46,855 nucleotides of DNA from Saccoglossus kowalevskii (taxonomy: Eukaryota > Hemichordata > Enteropneusta > Harrimaniidae), in NCBI RefSeq assembly GCF_000003605.2, contig NW_003135336.1:345248-392102 (forward strand), read 5' to 3'. Made by a program: the position numbers and the translations under genes. This document shows positions 1 to 26,450 of this stretch, piece by piece. Position 1 is the first letter of the stretch. Each line of letters begins with the position of its first letter. A model generated the notes under the pieces. It was not told where the DNA came from. It made no database searches and was given only the letters and a program-made list of their open reading frames with translations.

Positions 1-205
1 TTAAGTTCATTTATTAAAGTGTTATTATCAATACAGCTTGTGTCTGTGTGAGTTTGTGCAACATACCAATTACATGAATAAAATACACAATACTTAAAAA
101 CGTCTAAAAGAGATAGCAAGGAAGTTTGGCAGCATAGACCCCCCCAAAAGACAAATTTTTATAGTTGGTTGGTTAAATACTTAAATACTCGCTGTAAATA
201 CTTAC

Positions 206-350
206 AGTGCAGTCATGCAATCCTCGTTGCTACCACTGTTGGATGGTTCTCCTGGAATCCAATTACTATATTCTAAATCACTACCATCAACGTGTCTCCA
301 TGAGCCTTCATTTTCTAGATCATTTGGACCCATAAAAATTGTTGGAAAGT
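206..350 (-). CDS. Gene A exon 9: C-type lectin domain core (sugar-binding loop)
   Basis: A 145-nt exon, phase 1 to phase 2, with acceptor GTATTTAG and donor CT|GTAAGT. It contains MGPNDLENEGSW (the WIGL-ND region) and YSNWIPGEPSNSGSNEDC. The usual Ca-binding tripeptide EPN or QPD reads EPS here, while NEDC is kept. The WND motif and the last two Cys must lie in an exon beyond the left edge. Confidence 0.85.
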
Positions 351-3300
351 CTAAATACAAACATTGAAACTTTAGTATCAAACACATAGGACAATCTGAC
401 ACTCGTAATAATTTGAAATATGTTTTAAAAAATGTGTCTTGCCTATGCTTATGCCACGTGTCTTGGAGTGCATGTCTTAAGCTTCGAATTAAATACATTC
501 ACATATGAATGTGCATTTTGCAAATGACAGCAAAATTGGTAACAAGCAAGTTTTTTTCTGATCTCACACATATTACGATCGTGTCTGGTACAACGGATCT
601 CACACAAGTTTTAACTTCGTCATGCGCAAAGTATCCCACGCAAAAAGACATAAATCAAACACAAGTAACAGTCTTGTATCGAACAAACGGGTACAACCGA
701 CCTGTTATAAGTATGATTTGTACAAAGGGTCATATATTGTATATTGTGTAGGCACGACTGAACAATACTATGGTCTGTATTCTGTATCTAACAAGTCATT
801 GTTAATGACACAGTCCCCGTCCAAAATTTTGTGATTTGACATATCAATTTGATGCTGATGAAGTCATTAAAATTAGATTGAAACCATTAATAGGAGATGG
901 ATTGATAAAAAAAGTTATGATTTAGTGCTTTTACTAGAGAATTTGAAATTGGGCAGTCATATTGAAATGTTCATTGCATTCAAGAGAAAGTAGCATGGGT
1001 ACCATGAAAAACAAAATGGCCGCAAGTCGGCAATATTTGTTTGAATCACGAAAAAAGTATGACGTGCACCTATAACCCAATATGTATGATCATCATACCA
1101 ACTTTGATCTAAATCGGCCCAGTCATCTCCGAGAAACTGCTGCGGACACGTTTAGGTATCAGAAATAGCAAAATTTCACATCCAAAATGGCCGCCAGTCG
1201 GCCATTTTTGCTCCGATCATAAAATAACTTGACGCGCATATGTAAGACATTATGTATTGTCTCCATGTTAAGTGTGAATGAAATCCATCAATGGGTGTCC
1301 GAGATATAGCTCCGGACGTGCGTACAGACGGACGGAACGAACACAAATTAATAGTCCCCGTTTTTGGACTTCGTCCGAACGGGGACTAAATACAACTTGG
1401 GTTATGAGTGTGTTATGTACATAAGACCGCACAATACTATGAGTGCGTCCCATGCAAGCAGAGAACCTATAAAAACACACAATCATAAAAACCTAATTAC
1501 CTAAGCCGCCAAAATATTTCTGGAGGAAGTAGTGTCCATCGTTTTGTTCCATCTGATTAAAAGGATCGAATAAAGTTTTGCCAAGATTTCCACAATATGC
1601 TGATGCATCGACATAGTTCATAGCCTCAGGAACATATTCGTACTTGATGGTATCTATGGTTAACAAACCAAATGTTTACATTATATATATTCAGAGTGAA
1701 AACTACATATCTTTACACAAAGTGACGTAACTTCGTCACATGTATAGACATGTGTTGGGAAACACTGTAATACATGGAACATATGTTTGAAAATAAAAAT
1801 TATAATTTCACATATTAACATATATATAAGAGAAGTGCTTTTATGTTTTAGTTTTAAAGGATTGTGGTCGACGTGCTGCGCATGTGCGACATTTGTGTTG
1901 ATAAACACTGATTTTTCCAATGTCCAATGCGCTCTTGTAATGGAAATCACAAGTATAAGATTTGACCTGGGCGCGACTTGCACTGATTACCGCCGGTGAC
2001 TCCTTCGATACGTTCCAATTACCTAAAAACACCTAACTAAAGCTTGGTAACGTCTCAGTTTCTACTCGTTGATCTGCGCAACAGTCAAAGTCGTTTTGTT
2101 TATATGAGAACCACATATCTCGCGCGTACGTGGAGCGACGACTACCGCTCTTTAATCCTAAATAGTACTAAACCCGATATACCTATATAGGGCAACAATA
2201 CATACTCACTTCTACATGAATTAAACAGAGTGCACGTAGCACCTGGTTGAGTGCCCCATGGACCACCATAAATCAGTCCAGATTCAGGAACAGTAAACAT
2301 CCGTATGCAAATGTACTGATAATGTTGGCATTGATAGTCTGTCAGGTCAACCCCGTCTGCTATGATGCTGAAAAAAATGGTTGTGTCGCTTACTATATCC
2401 ACATTGTCGCTTGATACGACGGACGCAAATACGTCTGACAACAATGCATTATTCATGTTGCCCTGAGGGTCATCAACATTAGAGAAAAATATTTCGGTTG
2501 AGAAAAAGATATCTGCATTTCCGCTGAGTTTACCGGTTCCGGTAGTCATTGTTGAAAATTCAACATTCACAATAAATGAATTGTCATCATATCCCATGGT
2601 TACATCAACATTAGTACTATCCAATAACAACGGATCTTGGTTGTCTGGGGTAACTTGAACTACAAAATAAAATGGGAAATATGTTATTCAGGTGACGGTA
2701 TCAACTAAGGATTATTCACAGTATATTACGTATTGTTTGACGTCGGTCACCACGGGTTTTCATCATTAGTCAAACATAGTCAATCCCTGTTATATATATA
2801 TTTTTAATTTCGAGAACAGGCAAAACATCCAAAATTTGTGTTCATGTCAATCATTTAAAAATAGAAATCACATCTATCCTATACAGTCTCTGTGGTTTAC
2901 AAAACTAATGGGGTAAAAACAATCTGAACAGCTGATGGTTGTCAACTTGACATCATATGGGTTAACTTAGATTAAAAGGAAAAATACACAACAAATATAA
3001 AAGCAACGCCTTCTTCATTCCAGCTCGGTATTCAACAACTTGACTTACTCGAGTGAATGGTGCAATACAAAATACAGTTGAGCAATTATGGGCCTTATGA
3101 GGTGCTAGTATGATTTGGGGGTTGGCAATCCGTCAGGAGGGGATCACATGACGCAACAAAATCACGACAAGCCCAATACATAATCACCCTAGAACGACCA
3201 GAGTATCATATGACGTGTCACACGAGATAGCTGCACTAGGCCATTATAATAATTATCATTAACCATCCCCCATATACAGTAGTAGTTCTATAGAATTACT

Positions 3301-6300
3301 AGTGAAATGCTACATGACTCATACCCCGGTCATGACAAACCGTGTTTCAAAAGCTTAGAGTGACAACTAATAGTAAAAGTCTAACATAAGGGCATTGATA
3401 AGGGTTAATGACTTTTTTATTTGTAATCTTATTTTTTCTGATGTTATGGTAGTACGTTGCTACTGTGTCTAAATTATATATCTGATACACTTGACCTCAA
3501 CATTGTGTGCTTCAAACTCATTGTTAGTTCTATCGGGTTGTATGTGAACTATTTCGACTTGTCCCGCAAATTACCATAATGTACTACAGTCTCGTTTTTA
3601 TGTCAATAATATTCGCATAGAAAGTGTACTTCTGTCAATAAATTTATGAATGAATATTCACGGGGAAATTACTCACAGGGATATAGTTACTTGTCTAACA
3701 CTGCATGATTCTACACTCTGGTTACACATAGAAACGTTATTTGTAATACTATGAAAGGGAAGTTAAATGTTTAAGAACACAAAGAAAACAACTGAGAAAT
3801 ACATCGCAGTACATCGTCAACTGAATGAGAGGAAGATATATTGACCTCTTCTTACACATGAAGTTTGCAAAAGGCATGAGCACATTCTCTACGTGTCGCA
3901 CCCATAATGCAACATTCTAAGCCATAATCAACGACTACACAAGACACGTGACATTGATGCCATCCGAAAATATCTATATAAAGGCTAGCGTAGATATATC
4001 TATCATTGGAATATAATCACTAAATTTAGAATTGTTAATTGAATAATATATGCGAATGTGAAATTAAAGGATTTAAATTTTATGTATAAATTCAACTTCC
4101 TACACATGTATTGCAAATAACACAGATAAGACATTACTAATTTACCTTGACATTGTCCATTCAATTGAGTACAACTGGTTTCATAAGCCATTTCATTTGC
4201 CCACGTCCATTCATACGGTAACATTCCTACCACAGGTGATATGTCTACACAAACGTGTGTATAATCTTCACAGCTCAGATCATTTAAACTGAAATCACTA
4301 AATGTTACTCCCAATAGTTCAATATTATGATTGGCATTGATATATACCATAGTTGATGGCAAGGATACAGTGCTTGGTATACGTGCTTCTTCTGAATCGG
4401 ATGCTAAATAAAGTGACGTCTGGAAAACAAACTCTGTTTCGGCTTCGAAGTCAGCTGTTTCTCGGTCGGTTACTATACTGATATCTAAAGTGAAAGTTTT
4501 ATCGGAGCCCATTATCATATTGAGATCGTTTCCTGTAGCGACCATTAGATCAATAGAAGAGGCAGTAATTTGATCTGAATAAAAACAAGAAAGTTTTGAA
4601 TTAGTTTTTTGACTTTGTGTTTGTTCAGACTAGGTCAGCCTTTCATGAATTAAAAAGTATAAACAATCGTTTTTCATTCTCAGTTTAAGTTTTCATAATG
4701 TGGATATAATTGGGAATGCAGCACCGCAAAAATAAATAAAAAGTAAATATAAATGCGGCAGACACTGAATTTTACGCCCAATGAAAAGGAGCCATGGACT
4801 GAGTTGAATCTGTGAGCGTAGGTTGGGAGTATATGATCACGTAGAAAGATTAAAGATATGGACAAATACCCAGTACTGTAAAATAAACAGTATGCCTACT
4901 TCTTTAAAAATGCTGCAAATCTTTGGGCAATGTAATCACCAACATAAGTAACCATTGTAATCAGCTTGCAGTTATTAAGATGCGTATTTCGCTATTTATT
5001 CAAAGCCGAAACAAAAAAAAATATTTAGTAGCGTTGTTAACTATGTTTTGAATATTTCTGACAAAACGTGCTAATACTATTCAACGTATTCAGCTAACAT
5101 AACAAGATATAAATTTTTGAAAGCATTTAACTACAAATACACCAACTGATAGCACAAATCTCATACATGAACGGGTACTTACTACAATTAACAATAAAAA
5201 CTACCGACTTACTTTGACATGTTACAACAGGAAGACAATCAGTAATGACGACACCTGCACCCGACCATATCCAAGGGGAGTCGCTTCTCGGGCCAACATC
5301 AACACACAAGTAAAGAGTTTGAGCACAGCCCATTCCTGTGAGGTCGTAATTAACACTGATATTCGCGAGACTGATAAAAGCTCCTGGTGCCATCATGATC
5401 ATATCACTTGGCAATTCGTGGATTGATGATTTTGATGAAGTATATTCTCCAAACTCGTCGGAGAAGTAAAGGGACACGGAAAACAGAGAGTCTGCAACAT
5501 CACTGTAAGATTGTGATCCGTTGCTGATCCCGATGTCAATATCAAATACTATAGTTTTACTGCTAGACCCCATAATGAAGTCAAGAGTACCTGGTAGGTC
5601 AGAACCTACATGTAGCTGCAAGTCATCGGCATCGATTGGGTCTATTTGACAGAATAAAGAGGTAAAATTAATTTACGTCTCATAGAGGGGGGTATACGTT
5701 ATTTGCGTTAATGGGAGATATTTACACTTACATTGACACATTCCGAGGTCAATACACGCTGTCTTGAATTCTTCATCAGATTTCCATTGCCAGATAGTAT
5801 CTTCTACTGGTCTGATTTCTACACAGATCTCACTGTAATGGTTGCACACCAGCTCTCCGAAGTCCATTTCCACTGGTTGAATATCTAAAGCGATGGTGAC
5901 ATCATCACCAAATGTTACTTCATCGCCAAGGATAGACCCCACTAATCGAGGGGTTAGTTCGTCGCTATGCTCGTCTTGTAACTTGGCTGTGCTAGGGTCT
6001 ACATCATCCATTTTGAGGAACACTTCAACTGCAAATAACTCAGATGCAGGCCCACTAACAGCCTCACTACTGGAGCTAATATGTATATTAATGTGCAATT
6101 GAAATACCTTGAGCCACCCAAGTACTATGTCAAGAGTGGCGTATGGCTGACTTGACAGCTCTACATTTGCTGACACCAATGCTGAAAGCATAAAATACCA
6201 GAATATTAAAATAACTAATTAACTATCTAATAAAGTTTATTGTGATTCAATTCTTGTTTCCTGTGATTTCTATGGTCAGTAAAACAGTGAACGCGATGAC

Positions 6301-7582
6301 GGTAAATAGGGGAGGGGGAACAAATGTTGTGGTTCCTTTGTTCTCAGCGATATCCCGACAACAATTGGCGAATAACGTATAATGAGAGGAGTACAACAAC
6401 ACAATACAGCTCGATTACCTGTGCCAGTCGATTGAGAACCAATAATTCCTGAAGAAAACAAAATAATTACGTATAAACACATAAAATGCATTGGTTCAGT
6501 ATTACTAAAGTATGTAGAAAATTACAATGAATCTATATATTTGTTTTATTATTAAATGTTATTTCAATGTGGATATTCAGTGCGAACATATTATAGAAAA
6601 TTAATATATTATAATATTAATCATGGTTATACTAGATCATATGTGCTTAGCGATCAATAGCTAATTCGAATTGTACCAATCATGTTCTACAACAGGCTAT
6701 AATGATACGAACAAAGTAGAGTCAATCATAATAGTCAAAATTAATATAATCGCATTTAGTTTACAAATTGTTAATATTTATAGCTCCAAAATCACATCAC
6801 GTGATACTCACCAAAATATGATCCAATGCCACCACCTCCAAGAACGGATACAGTTAATACTGTTGCTAAGATACCACCTAGCCTTTTTCTACTTCCACTG
6901 CTCACTGCAGTCTGAGAAATGCATCGTATAAATATGTCGCAAATATGAATATAGAACATACAAGTCTAATTACAGTGATTAGTGACTAAGCACAAGTGTT
7001 TGATTCTCTTTAATGTATTTGGACATATAATCCGATAGCCACAATGCATTTACCTGAATCAATATATTGTCGCCACAAATAGTCAAGTCGGCGCTAATAA
7101 AATCAGATTGGTTTCTATGGCAACACATGTTAAGCGTTCGCATATGTTTCGCTGATATATTGCATGAATACAAGTTGTCGACATACTTAATTAAAATATT
7201 TGGGTAGACTTATACGTTGATTGCACATCCGAAAAAAAACCGTCTTGAAAGTCATAAAAAGTTGTTATTGATATCGTAAAAGTATTCCAATACACATGTA
7301 TACGTTTTACTGCATGTTATAACAATATGAAGTGAAAGTGTTTCTTACAAAATGTAAAAATCCCGAGCGTCAAATCGGATTGTCAACAATCTGACCAATT
7401 CCGTAAGACTGAGTCACATACAAAAAAACACACGTTTGAATATATGCATATGTGAGAGTTAAAATATCTGAATTTTGATATATATACTGTTTAGATGTCA
7501 TGGGAAAAGATATACTCAAGGTTGCTCAAATGATAACTAATATACTCACATTGTTGCTGGAAGTACCTACCGGGTTACTCAT
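206..7582 (-). CDS. Gene A: type II membrane protein with four unknown 4-Cys modules and a C-type lectin domain (3' partial)
   Basis: Nine exons join without a stop: 7582-7550, 6911-6812, 6448-6419, 6181-5732, 5641-5213, 4574-4146, 2659-2210, 1653-1501 and 350-206. The lengths 33, 100, 30, 450, 429, 429, 450, 153 and 145 nt keep one frame for 739 codons, and every boundary has GT and AG. Residues 1-28 or so are a polar tail ending in a basic patch (SRKRL). Residues about 23-43 are a hydrophobic, Gly-rich transmembrane stretch. Four repeated modules occupy 55-204, 205-347, 348-490 and 491-640, and a C-type lectin domain starts at 641. There is no cleavable signal peptide, so I infer a signal-anchored type II surface protein with the lectin outermost. 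The end of the lectin domain and the stop lie left of position 1. The start is the first ATG before a good donor (GTGAGT). The module family is unknown to me. Confidence 0.85.
351..1500 (-). other. Gene A intron between the two C-type lectin exons
   Basis: Apart from the MITE-like element at 812-1387, I see nothing coding or structured in this 1.15-kb intron. Confidence 0.6.
812..1387. mobile_element. MITE-like element with AGTCCCCG ends
   Basis: The left end reads AGTCCCCGTCC and the right end ACGGGGACT, its inverse. The right end also forms its own hairpin at 1353-1387, AGTCCCCGTTTTTGGAC against GTCCGAACGGGGACT. Inside, a motif with AAAATGGCCG and CGGCCATTTT arms occurs at about 1182-1210, and a decayed version at about 1013-1038. 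A GACGGACGGAAC stretch precedes the right end. It has no ORF. These features suggest a non-autonomous foldback DNA element in the lectin intron. The family is not identified. Confidence 0.55.
1501..1653 (-). CDS. Gene A exon 8: N-terminal half of C-type lectin domain
   Basis: A 153-nt phase 1-1 exon between ACCATAG and G|GTAATT. It reads YEYVPEAMNYVDASAYCGNL followed by GKTLFDPFNQMEQ. This is the usual start of a C-type lectin fold: helix 1, the first conserved Cys, and the 'LGxxLxxP' turn with the following Glu. It continues in frame into the exon at 350-206. Confidence 0.8.
1853..2059 (+). repeat. Dispersed repeat, copy 1
   Basis: It matches 44750-44929 in the same orientation. Shared blocks include GCTGCGCATGTGC, ACATTTGTGTTGATAAACA, CAATGCGCTCTT and GGCAACGTCTCAGT/GGTAACGTCTCAGT. 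This copy has about 35 extra bases in the middle. It lies in the intron between module 4 and the lectin domain of gene A. It is probably a SINE or MITE-type repeat; I see no clear Pol III boxes. Confidence 0.6.
2210..2659 (-). CDS. Gene A exon 7: module 4 of the unknown 4-Cys family
   Basis: A 450-nt phase 1-1 exon, residues 491-640, the same length as module 1. It has VDVTMGYDDNSFIVNVEF, CQHYQYIC, YGGPWGTQPGA and a closing CTLFNSC. The acceptor is TTTTGTAG and the donor A|GTGAGT. This is the last module before the lectin domain. Confidence 0.85.
2660..4145 (-). other. Gene A intron, module 3 to module 4
   Basis: A 1.5-kb AT-rich intron. I checked both strands for exon-like frames with splice sites and for repeats and found none. 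Confidence 0.6.
4146..4574 (-). CDS. Gene A exon 6: module 3 of the unknown 4-Cys family
   Basis: A 429-nt phase 1-1 exon, residues 348-490, exactly as long as module 2. It has LNMIMGSDKTFTLDISIV, CEDYTHVC, WTWANEM, and a closing CTQLNGQC (one residue longer between the last two Cys). The acceptor is TTATTCAG and the donor G|GTAAA. Confidence 0.85.
4575..5212 (-). other. Gene A intron, module 2 to module 3
   Basis: About 640 bp. The only sizeable frame, at 4680-4865 on the minus strand, lacks splice-site support and lies between two exons that already join in phase. I treat it as intron. Confidence 0.6.
5213..5641 (-). CDS. Gene A exon 5: module 2 of the unknown 4-Cys family
   Basis: A 429-nt phase 1-1 exon, residues 205-347. 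It has LDFIMGSSSKTIVFDIDIGI at the start, CAQTLYLC (C-x6-C), WIWSGAG, and a closing CLPVVTC (C-x5-C). The acceptor is CAAATAG and the donor A|GTAAGT. It aligns throughout with modules 1, 3 and 4, but only the Cys, Trp and MG-x4 positions stay fixed. Confidence 0.85.
5732..6181 (-). CDS. Gene A exon 4: module 1 of the unknown 4-Cys family
   Basis: A 450-nt phase 1-1 exon encoding residues 55-204. It shows the shared features of the module: a strand-rich start (LDIVLGWLKVFQLHINIHI), a stretch rich in acidic and polar residues, then CNHYSEIC (C-x6-C), a Trp pair (WQWK), and CIDLGMC (C-x5-C) at the end. Alternating hydrophobic residues suggest a beta-sandwich, probably with two disulfides. This is inference from pattern only. 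Confidence 0.85.
6419..6448 (-). CDS. Gene A exon 3: 30-nt linker exon
   Basis: A phase 1-1 microexon between CTTCAG and G|GTAAT. It adds GIIGSQSTGT, a short Gly/Ser/Thr linker between the membrane segment and module 1. The decayed paralogue on the other strand has a 12-nt exon at the same place. Confidence 0.75.
6812..6911 (-). CDS. Gene A exon 2: basic patch and transmembrane segment
   Basis: The acceptor is TTTCTCAG and the donor is G|GTGAGT; the exon runs from phase 0 to phase 1 over 100 nt. It reads TAVSSGSRKRLGG and then ILATVLTVSVLGGGGIG, one hydrophobic helix with a Gly-rich outer half. The positive residues sit on the N-terminal side, which favours N-in, C-out topology. Confidence 0.8.
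7550..7582 (-). CDS. Gene A exon 1: start codon and cytoplasmic tail
   Basis: Encodes 11 residues, MSNPVGTSSNN, and ends in phase 0 at AAT|GTGAGT. The short Ser/Asn-rich peptide precedes the basic patch of the next exon, as expected for the cytoplasmic end of a signal-anchor protein. A TATA-like box lies about 155 bp upstream. Confidence 0.7.
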
Positions 7583-7737
7583 ATCTGGAATACTGATATG
7601 TTCCAAACGTGTCACAAAATGTTGAAACTTTAGCGAGGTACAGTACGTAGGCGATCACCTTTATCAAAATTACCACAGTCAAATGAGTTGATGGGCATCT
7701 GACTTCGGACGATATGTCTCGACGAATTCCCTATTTC

Positions 7738-7745
7738 TCTTATAT
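7738..7745 (-). promoter_or_regulatory. TATA-like box of gene A
   Basis: The minus strand reads CCTATATAAGAG, a good TATA match, about 155 bp before the ATG at 7582. A start about 30 bp downstream would leave a 5' leader of roughly 125 nt. The assignment rests on motif and position only. Confidence 0.4.
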
Positions 7746-7987
7746 AGGATTAAAGTGACTTTAAGCGTTGCCTCCGTCGTTGTGTGTATGCAACAACTAG
7801 TAGTAGAAGCTATACCTGGAGCAATGTTGGTTATTGGGACGCCATAGTACTTGACTTGAATATTGCGAAACTTTTGCTTTGTCTTTGTAATAAGTGTGAA
7901 ATCTGGCTGATGGTAAAAATGCTAAGTGTATTCTTCGAGTTATTTAATAACAATATCTACATGTTCTGATAGATTGTATTAACAACA

Positions 7988-8060
7988 TAAAACATGAGAT
8001 TTAAGATTACGATAATAGCCCCGCAGCTAGCAGACGTGCTAACTACCACGCTACACTATT
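7988..8060 (-). other. Possible tRNA-derived relic
   Basis: The minus strand at 8053-8035 reads TAGCGTGGTAGTTAGCACG, which resembles a tRNA D-arm/A-box, followed by CTGCTAGCTGCGGGGC in the place of an anticodon arm. I find no B-box (GGTTCGAATCC) and no closing acceptor stem. It is at most a decayed tRNA or the head of a tRNA-derived SINE, in the spacer between the head-to-head genes. Confidence 0.2.
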
Positions 8061-8861
8061 TGCGTAAATAACGTATGTGTCTACCTAGTCGATAGATTAT
8101 ACGCGTCAATTTCCGTCGATTAATGTTTAGTAAATGGGACATTATCTTACATATTGCTGGTATCAAGTGATAGCGTAACTGAGTGTGCACAAACATTGTT
8201 TTTGAAATGTACGTTGAATATACGCCATCTACATTATGTATGTGTTGTGCTTGTATTGTTGTTACCATGGAGATATTATTATCTCTTGCACACTCATAAT
8301 TTTTATCCGCCGTTCTTATCCCTGTGGGTGAGATTTGGTCAATTTACAAGCGTAGTTGTAACAACACAGTACCAGTAAGTCATCGTCGGCACATTATTGA
8401 GTATTCATGATTTCAACGCGTACATGTATATCGAATTACATTCTCTGGGTCGTGGTCGAGCGCATTACATCACTAGTAAGAGTGAAAATGTAAGTTGACA
8501 TATTCATAGATTCTAGTTTCTAGTTATAATTCCTACTTTCACCTGAAAACGTTTTTTTTTGTCATATTAATTTTAAATAGCTGTTCAAGCACCCTTATTA
8601 AATGGCGAGGGTGTTGCGGTTTGCATCGTGATTGTTGTACCCGGTAGGTGTATTGAGGCCGCTTTTAATCTTGCTATTAATCCTGTGGGAATTATTGTAA
8701 ACTTCTTGTATTTCATTTTACATCAATGTGTCGAAAATAATCACTTATTGTTGTGAAGATTATTTCAATCCAGTATACAGCTATTGTTCGGGTAAGATGC
8801 TCGCAGTTTGTTCTTTAATGCTTAACAAATTGTCAGATGTTTACGACGTGTTTATTGACAG

Positions 8862-8982
8862 GACAAGGGAGCACCGCCGTCGGTGCCCAAAGGTGTATTG
8901 ATTGCCGTTTTATCATTATTATTATTGGTCGGATGTACTATGTTAATAACGTCTACAACAGCTAGTGTCTTACTGTGGACAG
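8862..8982 (+). CDS. Transmembrane exon of the plus-strand paralogue
   Basis: A 121-nt open exon, acceptor ATTGACAG and donor CAG|GTATGAG, phase 0 to phase 1 as in gene A exon 2. It has a Lys before a long hydrophobic run (GVLIAVLSLLLLVGCTMLI), consistent with a signal anchor. The exon itself is intact although the rest of the copy is damaged. Confidence 0.6.
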
Positions 8983-9812
8983 GTATGAGTTCTTTTGGTC
9001 TAAAATATGTTGACAGATTTTATGAAGATTAAAAATATGGACATTTAATAGAAATGATTAAAATACGTTATTCATTCTTGCCAATTGATTATTATTAATT
9101 TACTTATTGTATGCAAATGTGTTATAGTCGTCGAGTTACATCACCATAGTTACGTGTGTAACTCATCTTTAAAATGTATACCACGCATATGTGCAACTAT
9201 TGGATGATACGAAGTACTTATGGAAAATTCTACTCCATTGGGGTCCACACTAAATCTCATGACAACAAGTTTGATTCAATAACAGTATACGTCATAGCAG
9301 TTTCTCTGTGCTTTATTGCCAGATTTGATACGATATCTTACAATTCGGTCCCTATTCTATTACAGGAAGTGACGATAATGGTTTCGTTAATGGTGTGATT
9401 AAATTAAATATTATCTGCTATACCGTATATTATGGAATCACGCGTGAATGAACTGATAGTGTACAACGATTATTATGTCATAAGTTCTTATACTAAAAAT
9501 TATATCTTCACAAAATATTATTTGTTTATCTTGCAGGTAATAAATCGGGTGAGTGAAAACTATATATTCAATAAAATGTGCATTATGCAAATTGGTTGAG
9601 TGACGTAATAGCGAGGGTAATTTTGACGCTGCCATAGCCGATGCTAAAAAAGTCATCAAAACTTTCTACGATAAAGACACGTAGTATCTACCGTATAAAT
9701 TCTATTAAAATATTCAAAGATGTTAAGTGTGTTTAGCTGCTGATCAACAATCCCCAATATAAATGCATTCACAGCAAATAGTGTGCGTCACGATGTTTTT
9801 TTTATTCTCAAG

Positions 9813-10105
9813 CCATATTGACATTAAACTCAGTTTCGATGTCAATTCTTTCTAATGAAGTCATCATGGGTTCACATTATACCTTGGGAATGGATGTGGT
9901 ATTGGATGTTGGTATAGTGGATGAAATATTTGAGTTCTGGGTGTATTTTAACAACGCGGACAGTACTAGTCAAACTGCAAAACAAGTCCCAGAAAACAGT
10001 ATAACGTCAGCAATAAACATGACTGTCAGCGGTGCTGTGTTAATCCCCAGCGTTACCACACGACATGACCTTCATTCATTCAAACGGATGCGGGGATTAT
10101 ACTAA
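9813..10105 (+). pseudogene. Damaged 4-Cys module of the plus-strand paralogue
   Basis: It opens after TTCTCAAG in phase 1 and keeps the MGS-x4-L core of the family for about 85 residues. It then runs into TAA at 10103-10105 after an apparent indel. Module-like coding (Cys, Trp pair, TGANVI) resumes in another frame to about 10200. Confidence 0.6.
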
Positions 10106-10205
10106 TCTGCCAAATCAGCCAAATAAATTGTCGTGGTGGACTGGCGCCAATGTAATCTCAGTCTATTGGACGCTTGCGGAATTGAGTATAAACGCAAATT
10201 ACCAC

Positions 10206-12199
10206 ATCACTTTGTTGACTAGGTTTTTTCTGGTATCTGATTAGCGGGGGACATTTTTTGCCTTTCATTTTCGTAGACATTTAAAAAAAGTTTATTCTGT
10301 CGTCAGATTACTTATTTTGCTTATAGGTACAGAAAAACATGTAAACGTGTCTGGCTGTCAGACGAGGCACTGAGACATTGTAGCACAAAATCACTGAATA
10401 TGCCGAAACATGGTCATTTGTTTTACTTCTTTGTTAGATTCAACACGATTAAACATGATTTTATGCGGTCAACAACTAATCTAATATAGAACATGCAACT
10501 ACACAACAACTACAACAACTGGCTGGTCGCCTACCAACTTACTCCGTTCATGGAGTAATTAGACTATGAAGATGATATTATATATCCAACATTATTTTAC
10601 TAACTTTGTAAAACTTGTCTTTATTTTAAATATCCAGAATGCGTTTTTGATTTTGGGTCAAAAATATGCTTTTTTGGGCAAAAATGGTTTAACAAAAATT
10701 AGCTTAAAAACTTCAAGTCCGTTTGTGGGAATACATTACATCACTGGATACCTTGGTATACTACTGATTCAAATGCGTCCACTCATCTCTCTAACTGCTT
10801 TCAAAGTCGCACAGCATGACCTCAAAGTTCACTCTTTTCTATGTTTGAATAATTTATATATCTATATTAATTGCGGACTTGTTATTTTTGTTCCACTCGC
10901 CGTAATAAACTGTCCGGACGCATTTTGAAGAAGGAGCACCTTGTCAATAATGTGTGAAAATTTCGAGGCAAATGGCCAGTGTTTATCAGCTATTTTAATT
11001 TAAAACCTAAGAATTCACCAAAAATAGAAGACGAGAAAAAGGCCAATTTGCATATTGAAATTGAAAGTTAACGTATAGACATAGACATTTGATGTAAAAT
11101 CGTTGAACCAGAACAACTGCTCTTGAATATATAAATCAGAAACACTCATTCGTACCAGTGTCTTGATGGGGGTCGGTAAAACACATGGCAATGCCCAGTA
11201 AATATGACGTCATCTCATGAAATATTAAACAGGGGGCGGTCCTTAGAAGGTGACCTTTTATCACGACCAAAACATCATGGCTTCTCTTCTATGTATTTTC
11301 AATAAAAAATACCGTGAAGAGTACAAAGTGGGATATTAAATGTAGTATTGAGAACCAACTCCAGGAAGCAAACGCACAATAATGAATAATCGCGTAACCC
11401 TAGAATCTAAACACGAGGCACGGAAGTTCAGCGTTTCCAATCTCATTTTTCTCACTGCAACATATTTGTTAAAAGAAATATTTGAATACTGTCGTTTTTC
11501 AAGAAGGCAATTTCTTCCGATTTTGTTACGCCACATTCAGGGATTTTCTAAGACAGTCGCAGACAATCAGCGCAAGGATGTACGTACAAAACATGCTGTT
11601 GTACTACCGGCGACGGTCGCCTGCAAGACGCCTATTCAAGAGTATAAGGTTTATTGTGACTAGCGTGAATGGCTAAGCTTCGCTTCGGCAGTGAGCTGTT
11701 ATCACTGTAAACAATGTTAAATTATTCTTCACATGCTCAGTTTATTTTTTGAGAACAATTATTTAAAAATAAAATCACTCAGTAAATCAGAAACTCTTCT
11801 TTCTACCTCTCTTTCTTTTCACACCACGCATAATGTAATGATAAAAAATAGGAAAAAAACGCTGAGGAAATATAATGTTTGGTTTGCGAGCGAGCGAGAA
11901 CTGATTTGAGAATAATTGCACATGCGCGTGATTGAATGAACTATGACCCGTACAATCTCGATTTGCATATTGTCAATCAAAGGTCCTGTTATTTGTTTAC
12001 TCATGCAAATTAGGCAATTGGACATAAACATTGCCACGTGTGAGTGTTTTTTTATTTTTAACCAGAAAATAACCAGCAATTGTAACGGTGTTCCAATAAG
12101 AATTCATCGGTCAAATTTTCACAGAATGTTCTTTAGATAAAAATCTATATAATAAACGAAACAAACAATTTTTGATTGAAATTCACAAATAAACTGCAT
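10206..12199. other. Spacer without recognised features
   Basis: This 2-kb AT-rich spacer holds a 120-codon frame at 10566-10928 (+) with a hydrophobic, low-complexity composition. It has no splice context and no family I recognise. I found no exons, tandem repeats or transposon ends. Confidence 0.5.
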
Positions 12200-13104
12200 C
12201 TCTACCCATTGCGGGGCTATAGAGTAGTGCCGTGCGTATTGCTTCTCTTTTTTAATAACACGACACCATGACTTTTTTCACGCAAGGTTGTAACTTTGTG
12301 GACGCTTTTTCGTCCGTTTTCTCAAATTGTAAATATGTTGAACATCACCAAGTGTCAGAATGTGATGTATTTTGGCATTTAGTCGCGGAGGATATGGACG
12401 ATAACGTCACTTTCATAAAACGGCACAATCTTCGTTCGTGTATTCTGGTTGGTCGGGGATATTGAATTAACTCTCAAAGTTTTTGTCAGTTTAACCTGAA
12501 ATTTTCACACTATTTTGACGCCGTCATTACCAACAAAAGAACGTCTGGGCTTTTTTTTAGTTTTGCATTCTCGGTGAATGACATCCGAAGTGTGAAATAC
12601 CGACCGGGATTCAATATACGTAAACATCCTCGAGAACCTTGTAACATAAAAACAAAACACGCTATCTAAATGCCTAAAGTGCATATTATCGAGATTCAGT
12701 TCGATATATTTTCTCGTGAGTACTTAAACCGATTAATTTGATATATAACAACCTTGAAAGACCTAAGGAGAGTTGATTGTGAAACAAAAAATTCCAGTAT
12801 TTTTGCTTGATGAAAATCATTGGCCTAAACTTGTCAAAGATATTCTCTCAAATCTCTCAGCTGATTGAGTTGACATACACGTTCAAACGTGAGCACATAA
12901 CTACAACCGGTTATGTGAACTTGCTGACAGTTAAATGTTTCATAAAAAACATCTAACTGCTTCAAAAATCGTCTGTGCACGAAGTGTCTAACAATGTGAC
13001 AAACTAATTATAGTTGCTAAAATTAAAATAACAGAAAAAAAATATATTTCTCACGAACTGCTCAACCGAATGATCTGACATTGTGTTTGTGCATTATATC
13101 ATCA

Positions 13105-13655
13105 ATACTCATAAATTAGTCATGTATTGTGCTTTTCTTTGAATTCAAACATGTGAGACAGTTTTAATTAATATTTGTTTCATAAATTGTTTTAAAAATT
13201 ATTCCACATTATTACGTGTAGATACTTTAAAAGAGGTAATTAATTGTTACAAATTATATAATTACTATGTTAAACATTAATCACGACGGAACAATAAGTG
13301 AAAAGTGGTATTGTTCTGCCTAATTTTGTGTATAAATCGAAAGTATTTCATTCAATTGTTTGTAAACATGCTGGTATTTACGTAAGAACATTTCGCGGCC
13401 ATGTGGCTCGCAATGCGGGTGTGTATTTAAGACAGCCGGCAAACATTAATCCTCCACATAATAAAGATATAACTTCACTTGCAGGTCACTAAACCAAACC
13501 ATTTGTGAAAACACGAAACACCACCGACAACTAAGTCTATGGAACTAACAATCACCCAAGTTGTATTATGTGGTAGTCCAGTACATTTATGTCATGTTTC
13601 TATGGCAACATGCGTTGCACGCACGGTAGCTATTCCAGTTGATCAAAGAAAACAA
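13105..13655. other. Extra block in left arm absent from right arm
   Basis: Around 13105 the left arm matches the right arm near 30235 (ATTATATCATCAA). Matching resumes at about 13655 (TTTGTTAATTTACAGGAGG), directly adjacent in the right arm. The intervening 550 bases are either an insertion here or a deletion there. I see no terminal repeats or coding potential. Confidence 0.45.
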
Positions 13656-14967
13656 ATTGTATTTTTTTTGTTAATTTACAGGAGGGGAGTTTCCTCTGTA
13701 GGGACCTTGGCACCCTTACATATGTCGATATCAAGGTGACACATATTGTACTTACCACGAAGAAATAAACGGCAGCATTGTGACCATTGAAAGGGACTTG
13801 AATTTGGTCGGTCTTATTGTGACAACAGGGCTGCTTAAGAAACGCAATAACAAACCTATAATCGATTCACAAGGTCAATTACGAATTACATGGAATGGAT
13901 CTATTTGCAACATTTATTTTAGATACCAGTCTAGGATAAAATTGAATATGATGCGAACCAGAATTGATATTGATAATTACTCCAGGGAGTGGATGTTTGG
14001 CTCAAAACTTTAATTACAACGGTGAATATTGCAGAGCTTTACCACTATAGAGAAGGTATTAATTGTTATCAGTCTTCCTTCTTCTATTTACACAGGGGAC
14101 GCTAGTTGGACAGAATGGACTGGTTGGACGGTATGCGTACTGCCACCAGGCACGCCCGCATGGCAGTGTGTGGCGACGCAGGAAGGAATTAGACAGTGCT
14201 CAAATCCGACAGTAGAGGGCGCTAGGTCTGACTGTGTTGGTGAGAATAAACTAACACAACTCTGTATTCCAGCTGGTAGTATATGTCCAGGTACGAGATG
14301 TTTCTCAATAACGATTTATCAACAAATATAGACTAATATAAGTTAACAGACGTGGAGATTGATGGTTGTGGTTTGGAGAATATAATAATCATGAAAAATC
14401 ATTTTCAATAACACAACACTACATGATTGTAACATTTAATATGCGATACAATTGATGTTTTCACCATGAATCGGTGTACAGACAGAATACGCACCTATAA
14501 TCACACTTACACACTACACGCAAAGTAATCGAAGTCGCAACAACGGCAGAGCGCCTCGCCACTATGAGCAAACGCTCACCTCAGTACGTCACAATGACCG
14601 GTATGCTGTGATCTGGAGACCGGTACGGGAGGGTGGATTGTGTTACAGAAACGTTACGACAGTAGCGTCAATTTCAACATATCGTTCGAGGCTTATGTCG
14701 TAGGATTCGGTTCACTTGAAAGGGAACTATGGCTGGGAAATATATAATTTTCCGTAGAAGATATTAATAACTTTTATCTCAATAATTCTTTTGTAAAAGT
14801 AGACAGCGATATCACTATTGTCGACGACTCGATAGACGATCTGCTTGTTTTCCATGTTTCACGTGTTCATCGAATTATTGTGATGGATGGTGGTTTATAT
14901 CGTTACCTGGTTTTAGACTGTGCTTATACAAACTTAAATGGGTAAATAATATTGCTGACTCCACTAG

Positions 14968-15017
14968 NNNNNNNNNNNNNNNNNNNNNNNNNNNNNNNNN
15001 NNNNNNNNNNNNNNNNN
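14968..15017. other. Assembly gap (50 N)
   Basis: A run of 50 N next to a long (AT)n tract. Fifty may be a placeholder, so the true length is unknown. Confidence 0.99.

Positions 15018-15085
<68 letters not shown>
15018..15085. repeat. (AT)n microsatellite
   Basis: About 34 AT units follow the N gap. The matching place in the right arm (about 27530-27560) has only a short AT-rich stretch, so the repeat expanded after the duplication. Confidence 0.95.
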
Positions 15086-15090
<5 letters not shown>

Positions 15091-16109
15091 TTGCGTCTTT
15101 AACCTGAATTTCCAAACAAAGTTCTCTAACTTATATTTAAATTTATTACACCTAGTAACCTAGTGAATATGAATACTTGGTCATGTCGGACGCTTGCAAG
15201 AAATATAAACACATGGTGTGTATTTCAAAATATAAATATGAATACATAGTGTATATTTTACAGTTCTTTAGTTTTTACAATATTTTAGTTTTCGAAGAAG
15301 GACAATGTAAACCAAAATTAACTTAATGTTCCCCAACTATGCTTTCCATGATTCTAATACTTTTCTGTGACATTTTTTCTCTTCACAGAAAATACTACAA
15401 TCTCTACGGGGGTAATACAGCGGTGTCGGGACAGGTATTTTTTGGACCACGTGACACAATTCATCGTATTCACTTAAAGCTACACGGATGAAACTTCGGA
15501 GCAAACCCTAAAAATCAGAGTAGTAACGTCACATTCCGTTCTTCAGCAATACTTGGTGGTACACGATACATGACTGGACATATGTGATACTATCAATATA
15601 TGGGAAATTAGTTCCACACTATACAGATAATATTATGTTTTTACACTTTGATCTATGATTGACTATATATCGGCAGTACGCAAATAATAAAAAAACGATT
15701 CACGGGAAGCACTTGTTATTTGAAGAAGCACTTGTTAACAATGAGTAAAATGTTACAAACTACAAAATTATTCGAAAATACACAACTTTTTTGGGCGAAA
15801 TGAAATATATCAGTTGCTTGAGGAAATGTTAAAGCAAACAAGTTTAGGGTCAAAAGCGAGCATCTGATCAACACCTAGAATACTAATTAAAACTAAAAAC
15901 ACAATATGAACAAATCTATACCATGAATACAGAATATGTACCAAGGCTACCTATAAGTAGCTTGGCTAAAGATCCGCCAAGCAAAGTAAGGGGCTATGTG
16001 CTCAAGGTGAGGGCAATTGAAACGAACAATTCTGTTCTGTGCTAGACTATGGCAAATATTACTTGTAGTGGATAGTAAGCAACCCACGTGTGACACATTG
16101 AATCACTGG

Positions 16110-16383
16110 AAAATATGGTAAAATGGGAAATTGTAAATTATCTGTATTCTATTGACAGTTTGCACGGTTTTTTGCTTGAAATACAGTGGGCTGTCCAGGC
16201 CATGTTTAAAATTAGTGCTTCCAGAAATATTTCAATGCAACTGATTTTTTGATAACATATTTCTATTTTTATAATTTTTTCTAATATATTTCCAGGTGAT
16301 GTAGAACCAGAAATGAAGTGTGTGACTCCTAATAAAAGAGTCTCCAAAGTCAGTGTACTTGCTTTTATGCAAGTATAAGGGGG
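16110..16383 (+). other. Possible displaced 5' exon of the Harbinger Myb-type partner
   Basis: After an acceptor-like TATTTCCAG at about 16290, an open stretch reads DVEPEMKCVTPNKRVSKVSV and then meets a stop just before the 622-bp repeat. The coiled-coil end of a Myb-type partner protein resumes beyond the LTR-like element at 19222. I infer that the element split it. No target-site duplication is clear, so this is weak. Confidence 0.3.
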
Positions 16384-17005
16384 AAATTCTCTCTCTACGG
16401 GGTTCTCCACACTGTCAGGGGGGAAATCTCGTCTCGTCTCTATATCTCGTCCCCTTGAGGTACGGGATCGGGAAAGTCACTTTAACTTTATAGTCAAATA
16501 AGGCACACACAACGAAATACGTTTCAACTCTCGTCTTAGTCGATCTTTTGGAGCACTCTATAAGACACAGCGCCCTGGGGAAAATCCCCAAGACTCTCAC
16601 AAGGCTGAACCAAGACTCGCCCAAGACTGGACTGCCTCAAGGCTCGCCCCTGGACTGGACTCTCGACTGCGTCTGTCGTGGAGTATTCGCCAAGACCAAC
16701 CCAAACTCTCTTTATTCATTTTCAAAACTCTAACCAATTACAAAACAGTAAAAAGACTCTAGGGCGTAACCTTCAATCATAAAGCCAATCACACTAAGTA
16801 CTGAATACGTCATATCTTTTGATTAATCGTTCACTACATTAATAACTATGGATACCAACTGTCAGAATCGCGACGGTTATCTTGTAATTAGTTCCAAATC
16901 ACTGAGCCAAATTCCGTCCAAAACTTCAAATAGGCCTGAACGATGACAGACATAACACAGCAATTCAGCTAATAATCAACTAATTAAGTCGGTTAACAGA
17001 TACGC
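16384..17005 (-). repeat. 622-bp direct repeat, copy 1 (3' LTR-like)
   Basis: It runs from AAATTCTCTCTCTACGGGG to TTAACAGATACGC. I count about eight differences from copy 2, two of them single-base indels in G and A runs. The minus strand carries GAATAAAGAGAG (about 16704-16715), a polyadenylation-type signal. Confidence 0.85.
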
Positions 17006-18572
17006 CATGGCACATCCTTTCACCCAAACTGAGATTGTGCCTCCTGGCATTACATGTTCATAAATCAAAGATACCGTCCTCTACTCATCGTCATACAGGT
17101 TAAATACAATACTAAGAAAAAGGATAAATCAAAAAGAGTAAAACACACTAATTAATAAACTGATTATAAAGTCTAAATACAATGGTTATAAAGTCTCAAA
17201 TATCAACGGTTATAAATCAAAAACAAGGGAAAGGCTACCAAACGACTCACTTTTTTCAAACAGTTTCGCTGAGTTAACCCGTCGCTTCACTTTCTCCGTT
17301 ACTAAGGTTACGAACTCTATATCAAAGGTCAAAAAAAAAACTAAGGCGTGGCGGTGTAACCAAGCGATCGGCCAATCGCTGCAGTCGACAGCACGATCAC
17401 GTGATTACCAGGGATGCGTCTCTCGGTTAAAGCATTGCAAAGCGGTAACTAATAAACAATGAATAAAAAGCTATTAATCAAACTCCTGTCATATACGCTT
17501 ATAAACTTCAACTGAACTCACAAGTCGTTAATCTAAACACAAGTCATACGGCGTGGAAACAGAATGCAAAGACAAATTCGCTTTCATAATACATTACTTC
17601 TCTGGCAATAAAGACGGGAAAAAGACTAAAACGATATACACTACTTACATATAAACCTGTCAATCATGAACAAAAGCTTGCGATATCAAACAATACGTAT
17701 ATAAGCGCACCAAACTCTCACCTCAAAAAGATATAAAAAAACGTTACAAAGGTGCTCTAAACTCAAAAAGCGTCGGAAGTATTCCGGAACAACACGTAAA
17801 CAAAAACAACTCTTAAAACGTCGATATCTCTGTACTCGACAAATCACAAAACTCTTAAAAAAAACTCATTGTGGCATTACTTTCCCCATCATAATCCTTA
17901 CCCATAAACTCATTAAAACTCCATAACACTTCACAAAACTCAAAACACTGTGTTGCAAATACTTGTCCACTGAGGCGCGCTTAAATCGTTATAAAGGACC
18001 TCGAACGTCACTAAATATCAGTTCAAAACAAAGATCTGGGCGCTTACATAACATACAATTCGATATCACAAAAAAACGGTAAGAAAAAACGATAGGAAAA
18101 GCAAGCAATACATTACATTACTGAGCAATAGGGTTAGGGTTCTGGAAAAGGGTTCAACGTCCTGAGTTACACAGTGTCAGTTACAGTGTCCAACCAGCGG
18201 TTCTCTAAGCAATACACAGATAACTAAAGTTCTAATCAAAGTCTATAAGCGTCTCTTCTCTTGTCGCGTTATTCCGGGTCGTTCTTTGTCATCTTCTTGT
18301 CTTTAATGTCGCTCAATTCTTAATTATTCAGTCCTATACGATACTCGTCCTTCATAAGGGGTTCAGAAGTCTTCATCTCTTCAGCGTCGTTCATCGGTGC
18401 CGTTCGGGTAAAGCCGTTAGTCGTCAAGCGCAGTTTCTGAGTCGTCTCTGCCATCGAGCCAGTTAGTTCGGTTCGCAAGAAAGACACACCTTCGCCATTC
18501 ACTTTTCTTCACAGGATGTCAATGTGCGTAAGACGCAATGCCCAGGGTTCTCACACCACGTATCATAGGGTA

Positions 18573-19194
18573 AAATTCTCTCTCTACGGGGTTCTCCACA
18601 CTGTCAGGGGGAAATCTCGTCTCGTCTCTATATCTCGTCCCCTTGAGGTACGGGATCGGGAAAGTCACTTTAACTTTATAGTCAAATAAGGCACACACAA
18701 CGAAATACGTTTCAACTCTCGTCTTGGTCGATCTTTTGGAGCACTCTATAAGACACAGCGCCCTGGGGAAAAATCCCCAAGACTCTCACAAGGCTGAACC
18801 AAGACTCGCCCAAGACTGGACTGCCTCAAGGCTCGCCCCTGGACTGGACTCTCGACTGCGTCTGTCGTGGAGTATTCGCCAAGACCAACCCAAACTCTCT
18901 TTATTCATTTTCAAAACTCTAGCCAATTACAAAACAGTAAAAAGACTCTAGGGCGTAACCTTCAATCATAAAGCCAATCACACTAAGTACTGAATACGTC
19001 ATATCTTTTGATTAATCGTTCGCTACATTAATAACTATGGATACCAACTGTCAGAATCGCGATGGTTATCTTGTAATTAGTTCCAAATCACTGAGCCAAG
19101 TTCCGTCCAAATCTTCAAATAGGCCTGAACGATGACAGACATAACACAGCAATTCAGCTAATAATCAACTAATTAAGTCGGTTAACAGATACGC
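18573..19194 (-). repeat. 622-bp direct repeat, copy 2 (5' LTR-like)
   Basis: It has the same ends and the same length as 16384-17005. The sharp loss of similarity on both outer sides and both inner sides fits paired terminal repeats of one insertion. Confidence 0.85.
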
Positions 19195-19390: not shown

Positions 19391-20230
19391 TGCCTTGATG
19401 ATTATAGTGATGACAAGTGTAAGAAAATGTTTTTATAAGGAAGATTTATATATAATCTTTATACATATCTTGGTATACCAGAAAAAGTGGTGGGTGAAAA
19501 TAAAAGTCAAACAAATGGTATTAATGCACTATGTATGTTATTAAGGAGGTTATCCCACCCTAACCGATCGTCTGATATACAGTATACTTTTGGTAGATCT
19601 GAAAGCGGACTGAGTGTTCTCATCAAAGCTACATTAAATCATGTGTACGATAACTTTGGTCACTTGCTACGTACAATGAATGTACGCTTCATGCAAAAGG
19701 CCTACTTGGGTAGATATGCTGATGCTATTCAAAATGCCCCTTAAACAATGTGTTTGGATTTATTAATGGCACATTACGTCCAATCTGTACGCCCTTCATG
19801 TTCAACGAAATAGCTTTTCAGGGCATAAGAGATGCCATGGCATCAAATTTCAAACTATCATTTTACCCAATGGTATAATAGGAAACATGTTTGGCCCTAT
19901 TGAAGGGCGTCGACATGATTCCCATGTGTTGCGAGAATCTAGCATCCTACAACAACTTCAGAACATACCTCTATACGTAACTATGCTTTGTATGGGAATA
20001 CAGCATATCCCTTGAGACGCCAGTTACTCTGTCCATTTAGGGATGCCAAACTCACGCAACAACAACAAGAGTTCATATAGACAATGGGGGTTGAATGGGG
20101 GTTTGGAAAAATACTACTTAGTAGAGGCTCTTTTTACCAACTGCTACACATGTAGTATGGATCCCAAACTGGTACATACTTCTCTATCGAACCACCAACC
20201 ATGGACGTCTATTTGAATGCTTGAAATAAC
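19391..20230 (+). pseudogene. PIF/Harbinger (HARBI1-like) transposase remnant
   Basis: Pieces in several frames follow the HARBI1 order: YLGIPEKVVGENKSQTNG, ALCMLLRRLSHPNRSSD, FGRSESGLSVLI, VYDNFGHLL, GFINGTLRPICTP, GNMFGPIEGRRHDSHVL, YGNTAYPLRRQLLCPF and MGVEWGFGKI. The open part is 19487-19744. The first catalytic Asp of the usual GFIDGT is Asn (codon at 19765), while the RRHDS Asp and the VEW Glu remain. Several stops and frameshifts make it inactive. Terminal inverted repeats were not found. Confidence 0.8.
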
Positions 20231-23200: not shown

Positions 23201-26200
23201 ACGTTCCTTTCATAACGAAAAGTCGGCAAAATAATCTAGAAAGCCAATAAAAATGTTTGCAAAGTCGTTAAATTTTGCATTACCATTAGAATAATGCATA
23301 GACTGTAACTTTTCAATCAGAAATAGTCCTCTATATTACCCAAATGAATACCCTTTATAAGTTGTGTGATGGGTGGTACAGAAACGCCAGCTAATACTCT
23401 GTTAGGGAGATTGCATTGTTATGCAGTGATGCTTTACTACCCAACTACAAGTGATATTAAGGAATTCATATTAAGTGGAAGCTCTCAGTGCTGCAACCTG
23501 ATTGTGGGTGATATAAGATATAAATAAAAGTCGAAAACGTATAGCTATTTCAAACTATTCAGATGCCTGATTATACTAGCAGATGATAATGGATGGTTTC
23601 ACCACTGCGGAAGTAAGTGAGCTTGATATATCGCGTGTTTTAGTAATGTAATGTAGACATTGAATGTCATGTCATGGCATGTTTTTTTTTAATATTTATT
23701 TTTATTTTATTTTATTAACTAACTTGACCTGCCCCCTGAATATGAAACATATAAAGCTCATTGCTGTGTTTGCCTGATTCAGCCAACCACTGTTCAATAC
23801 AGTGTGGATTTTAGGGAATGAACATCAACACAATTATACTTAAGGTGGGACAACCTTAGGTTTACTTTGTATGGCATACTAAATGTTATTCCAGAAACTT
23901 CTCTTTTTTCTTGGGTAGATTTGTAGATTTGAAAAATTCTTTAAAAACAAATCCCAGATTGATAGTTACCCCAAAAAGCTTCAAAATGACACCTGTGGCT
24001 TTCAATAAAAATGGTATGAACAATATCGTTTCTGATCGCCACCCTTCTTTGCAGTACTTTCGTATGAAGTATCAGCCTCTGTTGACACAGACGCAACATA
24101 TAATACATACCCCTACTATGTGTGCATGACAATGGTTCCTCGATTAATTTAATCTTACTAACTTGTTAATTCTATCCATTTTCATTCACCGGGGACCTTC
24201 TATATACAATTCCTAATGGTTCCCACGAACAAGTAGATCACAGCTTTCTAATTCTTACATTTTGCAAGGCAGATATATATCTATTAGCTTTGTGACAAGG
24301 TAAAACACGTATTAACGCAAATATTTGTCTTTGTCGATGCTGCGTACATACTACAGTGCGCATAGAAACCTATCCTCCGGCAAATTAGAGGAAAGAAACA
24401 AGACCATAACTACATCATGGTTTGCGAGAAGAGAATCACAAACTCAAACCATGCGTGTTCACCAATTTTTTGGCTAATTATAAGAAAACATATTAAACAT
24501 CTGTATGATGAACATGTTTCATCATGTCAATTTTCTAATCACTTAGGCTCTGTACCTTAGTATGACCCCTGTAGTTTTAATTTACGGCATCAATTTCATT
24601 CGAACAGTTAGTTATCTGTCTGCGGATATTACAGCACAGTGCGTCACAACAATGCGTATATATTTCAAAACAACTTTACAATGCTTTTCACAATGGTAAC
24701 ATTGTGTATGTAGGTTAAATGAACATATTATGAGACTATTACGAAAAAAAACCCTGCAAATTATGCACGAAGGCAATATGGTGATAGTATCTACCGCGCG
24801 TAGCTGAGGTCGATGCGTTACCGTACTGTCTAAGTGCATACTTTGAGAAATTCTCGTGATGAGCTTAATACTATACATTCCTGCTTGTTTTAGTAATTAA
24901 ATGAAAGATAATAACCCGAATTGGCAAAGAAGAACGTTTCGCGCTGTGTGAACGTTTGCGTTATGTTTGCATCACGCGCTGAAAAACGGGGTAAAGTGTA
25001 CGTATTGTTGCATCGTAAACACATCAATGACATTAACTTGAAAGTTATATTTACCATAAAATGTACTCGCCTTTTTTGCAAAATGATTTCGGAAAATCGT
25101 TTATTTTGTAAATTATTCCAATTGTCATCAAAGAACCGAGGTTAGATCCAGGCCCAATGATATTAGTCATTGCACAATAGATGCGCTAATTAAAGATCAG
25201 GTGAATACGGTATTTCTTGTACGCTTGCGCTGAAAGACGAGCCGAGAATTATTGATGGGAATTACTCACTATTTGCAAATAAATTTGCAGACGACTTCAA
25301 CTGACAGTCACCGAACTCGATGACTACACTAATACAGTTTCAATAGTCGTCGGCGAAAATATGTATGTACTTCTTTGCTGATGAACGAATCACCGTGACA
25401 TGATATTTCTCGGCTATTGCCTTGTTTTCTTTCAAACAAAACATATATGTGCTGACACGGTCGATCCCATTTTCGCAGCTAAAAATGCCACAACGTTTAG
25501 TTATTGAAGCGAGCGTCGTGAAGGGTAAATAATTAAATAATTATCGATAGTTCAAACAGTATTACTTGTGAAGTGAAAGATATCGCAATAAAGTCGTTTT
25601 GTGTGAGCTCGAAATTGGAAAAAAACATCAACGTTGAATTACCTCGATATCTTTCAAATATGGTAAATTGTTATATTAAGTCGTATGCTATGAGCGATGT
25701 TCGTAGTCGAATGTGATCGGCTAAAAATGTCTAATGTGTCTCTCAGTACTGAATGAATCGTGAACGCTGTTACTGACTGACAGCTGCTGAATAAAACTAC
25801 TTTTTTCGACTGTTTATGGTGCGTGACAAAGTGCGTATTCATGATATCAAACATTATGGAACGTTCTAAAATGCATGCCATAAGTCTCTATGTGTTGTGC
25901 AATTTATAAATATATATATATATATAATAATATTTAATAATAATTGTATGATGATTAGCACTGACATACCCACCATTAATCTAAAATTAGTACATTATGA
26001 CATTCATGTAGCTACCAGATTTCTGGCGCCCTCGGAACAAAAGTCTGAACACGTGTTAGTTTTTAATCTTTTAGTATGATTTCATTTCTTGCAGAATATG
26101 TTACAACTTGGTACAAATAATGCAGAATCTTCATGTCAATATGCATATACAAAGACTTAAATACTGACAATTATGGTAATTATTTCACACTCACAACACA

Positions 26201-26450
26201 TTGGATATATTTTTATTACAAGTTCGTGATTAATGTTCATTATTTACAGATATATTTATGAATGGTTGATCCCTAAATTTGCACATTATTTTTGATTGGT
26301 AAAGAATCAACATCAACACAAAACCCTGTATTGACAGACGTTGTTTGCTTAGTTACATTTTCAATTTACTAATGGACACACTGCCGTCTGTAACAGGCAC
26401 AGGTTTATGTCCTAAGCTCTTAAACGCATCTCTCATCCGCACAGTTAAAG
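20245..26450. other. Spacer between the arms with minor repeats only
   Basis: About 6.2 kb without a gene I can support. It holds a 12-G run (20386-20397), a block with alternating AAGGTCA words (about 20745-20790) that looks like part of a dispersed repeat, a (TTTTG)n run (about 21784-21810) and an AT run (about 25908-25926). Frames of 60-90 codons here have no splice context or recognisable domains. Part of it is probably the 3' body of the Harbinger element. Confidence 0.5.

Follow-up and report, generated by a model that had tools for sequence, protein, structure and literature searches.

The stretch of DNA analysed here (the window) comprises 46,855 nucleotides of contig NW_003135336.1 of the hemichordate Saccoglossus kowalevskii. 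Nine exons on its minus strand, bordered by AG/GT, run from position 7582 to position 206 and, once spliced, give 2219 nucleotides, or 739 codons, free of stops. The encoded chain starts with a short basic N-terminus, followed by a hydrophobic anchor, four modules and a partial C-type lectin domain (CTLD). Exon 1 (7550..7582) carries the ATG start and MSNPVGTSSNN, part of the predicted cytoplasmic tail, and ends in a GT donor in a frame that fits exon 2. Exon 2 (6812..6911, phase 0 to 1) contains a basic SRKR and the hydrophobic anchor LGGILATVLTVSVLGGGGIGSYF, as indicated by its splice sites and hydropathy, and exon 3 (6419..6448) is a linker of 10 codons supported by splice sites and frame. 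Each module then occupies one exon with 4 cysteines: module 1 at 5732..6181 (450 nt, 150 codons), module 2 at 5213..5641 (429 nt, 143 codons), module 3 at 4146..4574 (429 nt, 143 codons) and module 4 at 2210..2659 (450 nt, 150 codons). The first half of the CTLD lies in an exon at 1501..1653, and a further CTLD exon at 206..350 ends in the splice donor ACT|GTAAGT. Phase 1-1 is common to the linker, all four module exons and the first CTLD exon; this symmetric phase is the exon class expected for shuffled, duplicated extracellular modules. The preliminary description of this DNA had proposed nine exons at these coordinates, with modules of 143-150 residues, and both proposals are borne out by the splice sites and the single continuous frame. 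In the intron between the two CTLD exons, a near-palindrome (agtcccc...ggggact, 1350-1390) was noticed by eye and may mark one end of a mobile element.

The predicted anchor has a 19-residue hydrophobic core with a mean KD hydropathy of 1.79, and residues 1-22 carry a net charge of +3. Both values fit an N-in, type II orientation, and the signal anchor proposed earlier is thus plausible, although the core is only moderately hydrophobic. The 21-residue tail has no tyrosine and the anchor has no charged residue; therefore, no tyrosine signalling motif is visible, nor any charged residue that could pair with an adaptor.

The joined CTLD exons match Lectin_C (PF00059) at E = 5.3e-08 and 34.0 bits, above the curated cut-off of 22.6, over profile positions 2-84 of 107, and the second exon contributes a match of its own at 5.2e-05. 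Against PDB sequences, 89 matches were obtained at E up to 1e-3, the best 60 of which are C-type lectins, including mannose receptors, collectins (collectin-11), CD23 and DC-SIGN; the top match is MRC2 (3.7e-10), mainly through the second of the two CTLD exons. The CTLD of the preliminary description is therefore upheld as a domain but is incomplete: because the last exon ends in a donor at base 206, its second half, to which the WND region and the last conserved Cys belong, would lie before window base 1. The fold does not need the EPN or QPD motif, which binds sugar and calcium in CTLDs, and here the EPN position reads EPS, in GEPSNSGSNEDC, which is neither EPN nor QPD.

The four modules are homologues. 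Local alignment of the six module pairs gave scores of 104, 111, 81, 115, 77 and 87 (z from 8.3 to 16.8), while the top score in 500 shuffles per pair was 52-62 depending on the pair. Module 4 has the lowest scores with the other three (81 for modules 1/4). Identity is 31% for modules 2/3 and for modules 1/3, 26% for modules 1/2 and 19-20% for module 4 against modules 3 and 2, modules 1 and 4 being compared by score rather than by percentage. Only one G, one F, one L, one W and four C are invariant across the alignment. All 16 module cysteines belong to this pattern, four in the C-terminal third of each module at spacings of 7, 23-26 and 6-7 residues with none extra, and the remaining two cysteines of the open frame are both in the CTLD. 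The C-x6-C described earlier is indeed found in all four modules, as is the C-x5/6-C, with x5 in three modules and x6 in one. The other two elements of the motif need amending: "MG" occurs in three of the four modules but reads LG in module 1, leaving the G alone invariant, and the "Trp-rich loop" retains one invariant Trp, which in module 4 is the only one. Two glycosylation sequons are present in the ectodomain, both within module 2.

Bases 1-8600 contain four stop-to-stop frames of at least 180 codons, identical with the four modules, while 200 first-order Markov copies of the same bases contained on average 0.015 such frames and at most 1. We also computed the hydrophobic moment as an average over the four modules. 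Of 2000 column shuffles, 1 was as high as the observed value at 160 degrees, 2 at 170 degrees and 4 at 180 degrees; at the helical 100 degrees, 1999 of the 2000 were equal or higher. A high moment at the beta period together with a depleted helical one favours a domain rich in beta strands and speaks against a helical stalk. The beta-sandwich proposed in the preliminary description thus receives indirect support, from the periodicity of the sequence, and the module is probably of this kind.

A fifth, decayed module, part of a divergently placed relative, lies on the opposite strand (9818..10157, plus strand, ends approximate), where it was recovered by frameshift-tolerant alignment. This region was chosen by eye and tested afterwards, using bases 9700-10299 as query against the four modules. 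The scores summed over the four modules reached 182, as against a best of 145 in 200 Markov copies and of 149 in 168 other 600-base pieces (84 stretches on both strands, omitting starts before 6301, those from 9302 to 10400 and stretches with N). Because module 1 aligns in another register (its residues 82-100 at 9842-9898), the sum was repeated over modules 2-4 and came to 139, compared to a best of 114 in the 200 random copies and of 117 in the 168 stretches. Module 3 taken singly was equalled by 1 of the 200 random copies and 2 of the 168 stretches. The alignment of module 2 crosses two frameshifts, near 10104 and 10118, and that of module 4 crosses one, near 9856; in a search with the four-module profile, the decayed copy did not stand out from the noise (best stretch 3.8 bits; -1.7 and -1.6). 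Ahead of it, an anchor-like exon, DKGAPPSVPKGVLIAVLSLLLLVGCTMLITSTTASVLLWT (8862..8982, plus strand), has AG/GT boundaries and an open frame and, if read in that frame, passes from phase 0 to 1 like exon 2. We infer that exon and module together are the remains of one decayed relative of the gene. Beside this broken copy, the four intact modules keep open frames in spite of the 19-31% identity among them, which suggests that they are under selection.

Other features of the window were noted in passing. A gene or part of a gene at 27573-28854 on the minus strand is recognisable by its EGF-like exon (Pfam EGF, 7.4e-06) and by a fibrinogen C-terminal domain (1.2e-38); it also contains an exon that looks thrombospondin type 1-like by eye and has no Pfam match. 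The region of this gene is present as an inverted duplication, 12224-16099 (plus strand) against 26447-31462 (minus strand), about 70-94% identical in pieces, and the fibrinogen copy on the plus strand seems to have decayed: a single stretch, 54 profile positions long, matches in one of three frames. A direct repeat of about 629 bases occurs at 16378-17005 and 18567-19194, the two copies being 98.4% identical, and is followed at about 19797-19961 by a piece of DDE_Tnp_4 transposase (1.2e-09), possibly a recent mobile element. About 136 bases at 32876-33011 are imperfectly self-complementary and may be a small inverted-repeat element; a related copy lies at 24725-24877. An ORF at 42153-42536 on the minus strand, hydrophobic at its start and containing a PAN domain (4e-06), perhaps belongs to another extracellular gene. 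Scans of the window for tRNA and Rfam families found none.

What, then, is the module? With E values up to 10 accepted, Pfam showed no family shared consistently by the four modules and nothing near a curated cut-off, and NCBIfam gave zero matches. HTH_Tnp_1_2 (E 0.15) and DUF4567 (E 0.17) each matched one of the four modules and were dismissed as chance, as were five PHROGs families (best E 0.0012), again each in one module of four. The Pfam "ET module" found in the module 3 ORF (E 0.017) was also rejected: it spans residues 150-187, mostly intron read-through beyond the module, and is absent when the module 3 exon alone is scanned. The preliminary description had proposed a profile search; a profile was accordingly built from the four modules and, at E up to 10, matched nothing in PDB. 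For modules 1 and 4 this profile was the sole comparison with PDB; modules 2 and 3 were also searched singly, with phmmer matches (E 1.4 and 0.5, respectively) that we regard as chance. Relatives were sought in viral and prokaryote collections by searches that detect close relatives only: all four modules found none in a collection of viral contigs, module 3 alone found none in prokaryote genome contigs, and module 2 alone had one match to phage sequences at E 0.7. In the open-licence literature, no title or start of an abstract describing such a module was found. Similar-looking modules presumably occur in uncharacterised predicted proteins of marine invertebrates; if so, the domain would be unnamed rather than unique. 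The earlier verdict of an unrecognised module stands insofar as Pfam, NCBIfam, PHROGs and PDB hold no convincing match, but has to be qualified by one weak signal, towards CARDB and other Ig-like domains.

Visual inspection suggested a resemblance between CARDB domains, whose fold is an Ig-like beta-sandwich, and the first two thirds of the module, with alternating hydrophobics followed by "FSVSLYFSDE". To follow this lead, 23 loci were fetched with a made-up CARDB-like probe, and 96 domains from them plus three PDB stretches were built into a profile; Pfam named the matched stretch CARDB in all 7 of these loci that were checked, and fn3, Big_2 and PKD in the three control stretches checked. 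Compared by hhalign, the module and CARDB profiles scored 18.2, above the maxima of three sets of column shuffles (13.9, n=100; 12.9, n=60; 14.7, n=40), above the reversed profile (9.7) and above the control families FN3 (8.9), Big_2 (11.7) and PKD (9.0); a CTLD control scored 7.0. When the CARDB HMM scores were summed over the four modules, 5 of 500 shuffles equalled the total, as against 119 of 500 for PKD and 271 of 500 for FN3. Singly, module 2 (17.2) and module 1 (13.9) scored above their own 40 shuffles.

The same comparisons also limit the signal. The hhalign probability is 4.3% over an alignment of 28 columns, or about two strands; in global mode the score falls to 4.67, below a shuffled maximum of 10.3; and hmmalign leaves modules 1, 3 and 4 mostly unaligned to a model of long CARDB domains. 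Big_2, at 11.7, is likewise slightly above its own shuffles (10.7) and, as for CARDB, was equalled by 5 of 500 shuffles in the HMM test, in which a longer CARDB subset was equalled by 36 of 500. DUF11, which stood outside the control families, also matches several of the fetched CARDB-type domains, and Pfam gave no CARDB match to any of the four modules at E up to 10, a scan in which the HMMER filters drop most weak matches. We reject CARDB as an established identity, as unproven, on three grounds: modules 3 and 4 singly (10.7 and 10.0) stay below their shuffle maxima (15.7 and 15.0); when the CARDB set is split, its halves score 19.6 and 15.1; and a fibrinogen-domain control from this window scores 15.2. 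We take the signal to hint at an Ig-like beta-sandwich rather than to show membership. That the module is a strongly diverged Ig-like beta-sandwich, nearest to the CARDB kind among those found and with added cysteines, is a serious candidate to which we would give somewhat less than even chances. Slightly more tentatively, the module could represent a family of animal extracellular domains not described before. Such a family would have a disulfide plan of its own (C-x6-C, Trp, C-x5/6-C), would have been dispersed by exon shuffling and would be present in more than one membrane gene in the cluster.

For the gene as a whole, we favour, with some confidence, a type II animal membrane protein in which a CTLD is displayed on a stalk of four tandem four-Cys beta-domains. 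The extracellular part would be preceded by a hydrophobic anchor without charged residues and, before it, a short tail of 21 residues in the cytoplasm. Each beta-domain would be held by its four cysteines, probably paired in two disulfides, and the set would go back to a symmetric phase 1-1 exon that was duplicated. The four domains may form a stiff stalk that keeps the CTLD, the putative ligand-binding head, off the membrane. Because the tail has no tyrosine motif and the anchor no charged residue, capture, adhesion or uptake would be more likely functions for such a receptor than direct signalling. Exon structure, module homology, the cysteine pattern and the CTLD can be read directly from the sequence, while the fold of the modules, the pairing of their cysteines, the topology, the role as a stalk, ligand binding and the recognition role suggested earlier are inferences.

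Three other accounts of the gene have to be weighed against this one. In one, the hydrophobic segment would be cut off as a signal peptide, leaving a soluble multidomain lectin, in keeping with the moderate hydropathy and the Gly-rich second half of the segment. However, 21 residues, long for a signal peptide, precede the hydrophobic core and carry a net charge of about +3, and the hydrophobic stretch continues into FGII; we consider secretion unlikely. Alternatively, the modules themselves might bind ligand, with the CTLD reduced to a vestigial or structural cap, as the EPS that replaces EPN in the visible CTLD loop and the far divergence of the modules (19-31% identity) could indicate; but the CTLD score is still good and a passive stalk is also compatible with such divergence, and we find this less probable still. 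Finally, exons of two genes may have been joined, or the modules may be skipped in transcripts, so that the combination is an artefact of prediction. PMC4967905 argues that gene prediction errors may explain many novel domain combinations in lancelets. Here, all exons lie on the same strand in a continuous, stop-free frame with matching phases, and an artefact is in our view the least probable of the three. An unfamiliar domain next to a CTLD is in itself to be expected: according to PMC10140915, CTLD genes have undergone large lineage-specific expansions and many of their proteins carry extra domains, with 300 genes in the lancelet.

If the module is a real uncatalogued domain, its profile could annotate a class of membrane proteins that are at present uncharacterised in invertebrates, and it would represent another way to build a stalk beneath a C-type lectin head. 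If it is a divergent CARDB or other Ig-like domain, it would be an ordinary extension of a known fold.

The overall plan of the receptor is familiar; the module is unnamed in the libraries searched and possibly a diverged Ig-like domain. CD23 (Fc epsilon RII), DC-SIGN/DC-SIGNR and langerin are type II proteins with the same succession of N-terminal tail, anchor, stalk and C-terminal CTLD, and the CTLD described here matches the CD23, DC-SIGN and CLEC4K chains in PDB. Their stalks are helical, coiled-coil or made of repeats, whereas the predicted stalk of the hemichordate protein consists of four four-Cys domains with beta periodicity. The mannose receptor family (MRC1, MRC2) resembles it in the CTLD, MRC2 being the closest PDB sequence, but MRC1 and MRC2 are type I proteins with many CTLDs, while here a single CTLD is preceded by four unrelated modules. 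With CARDB (PF07705; solved structures 2l0d, 2kl6, 3idu and 2kut, by probe match), the modules share a weak profile similarity over about two strands and differ in their four conserved cysteines and Trp, which have no counterpart in the CARDB consensus.
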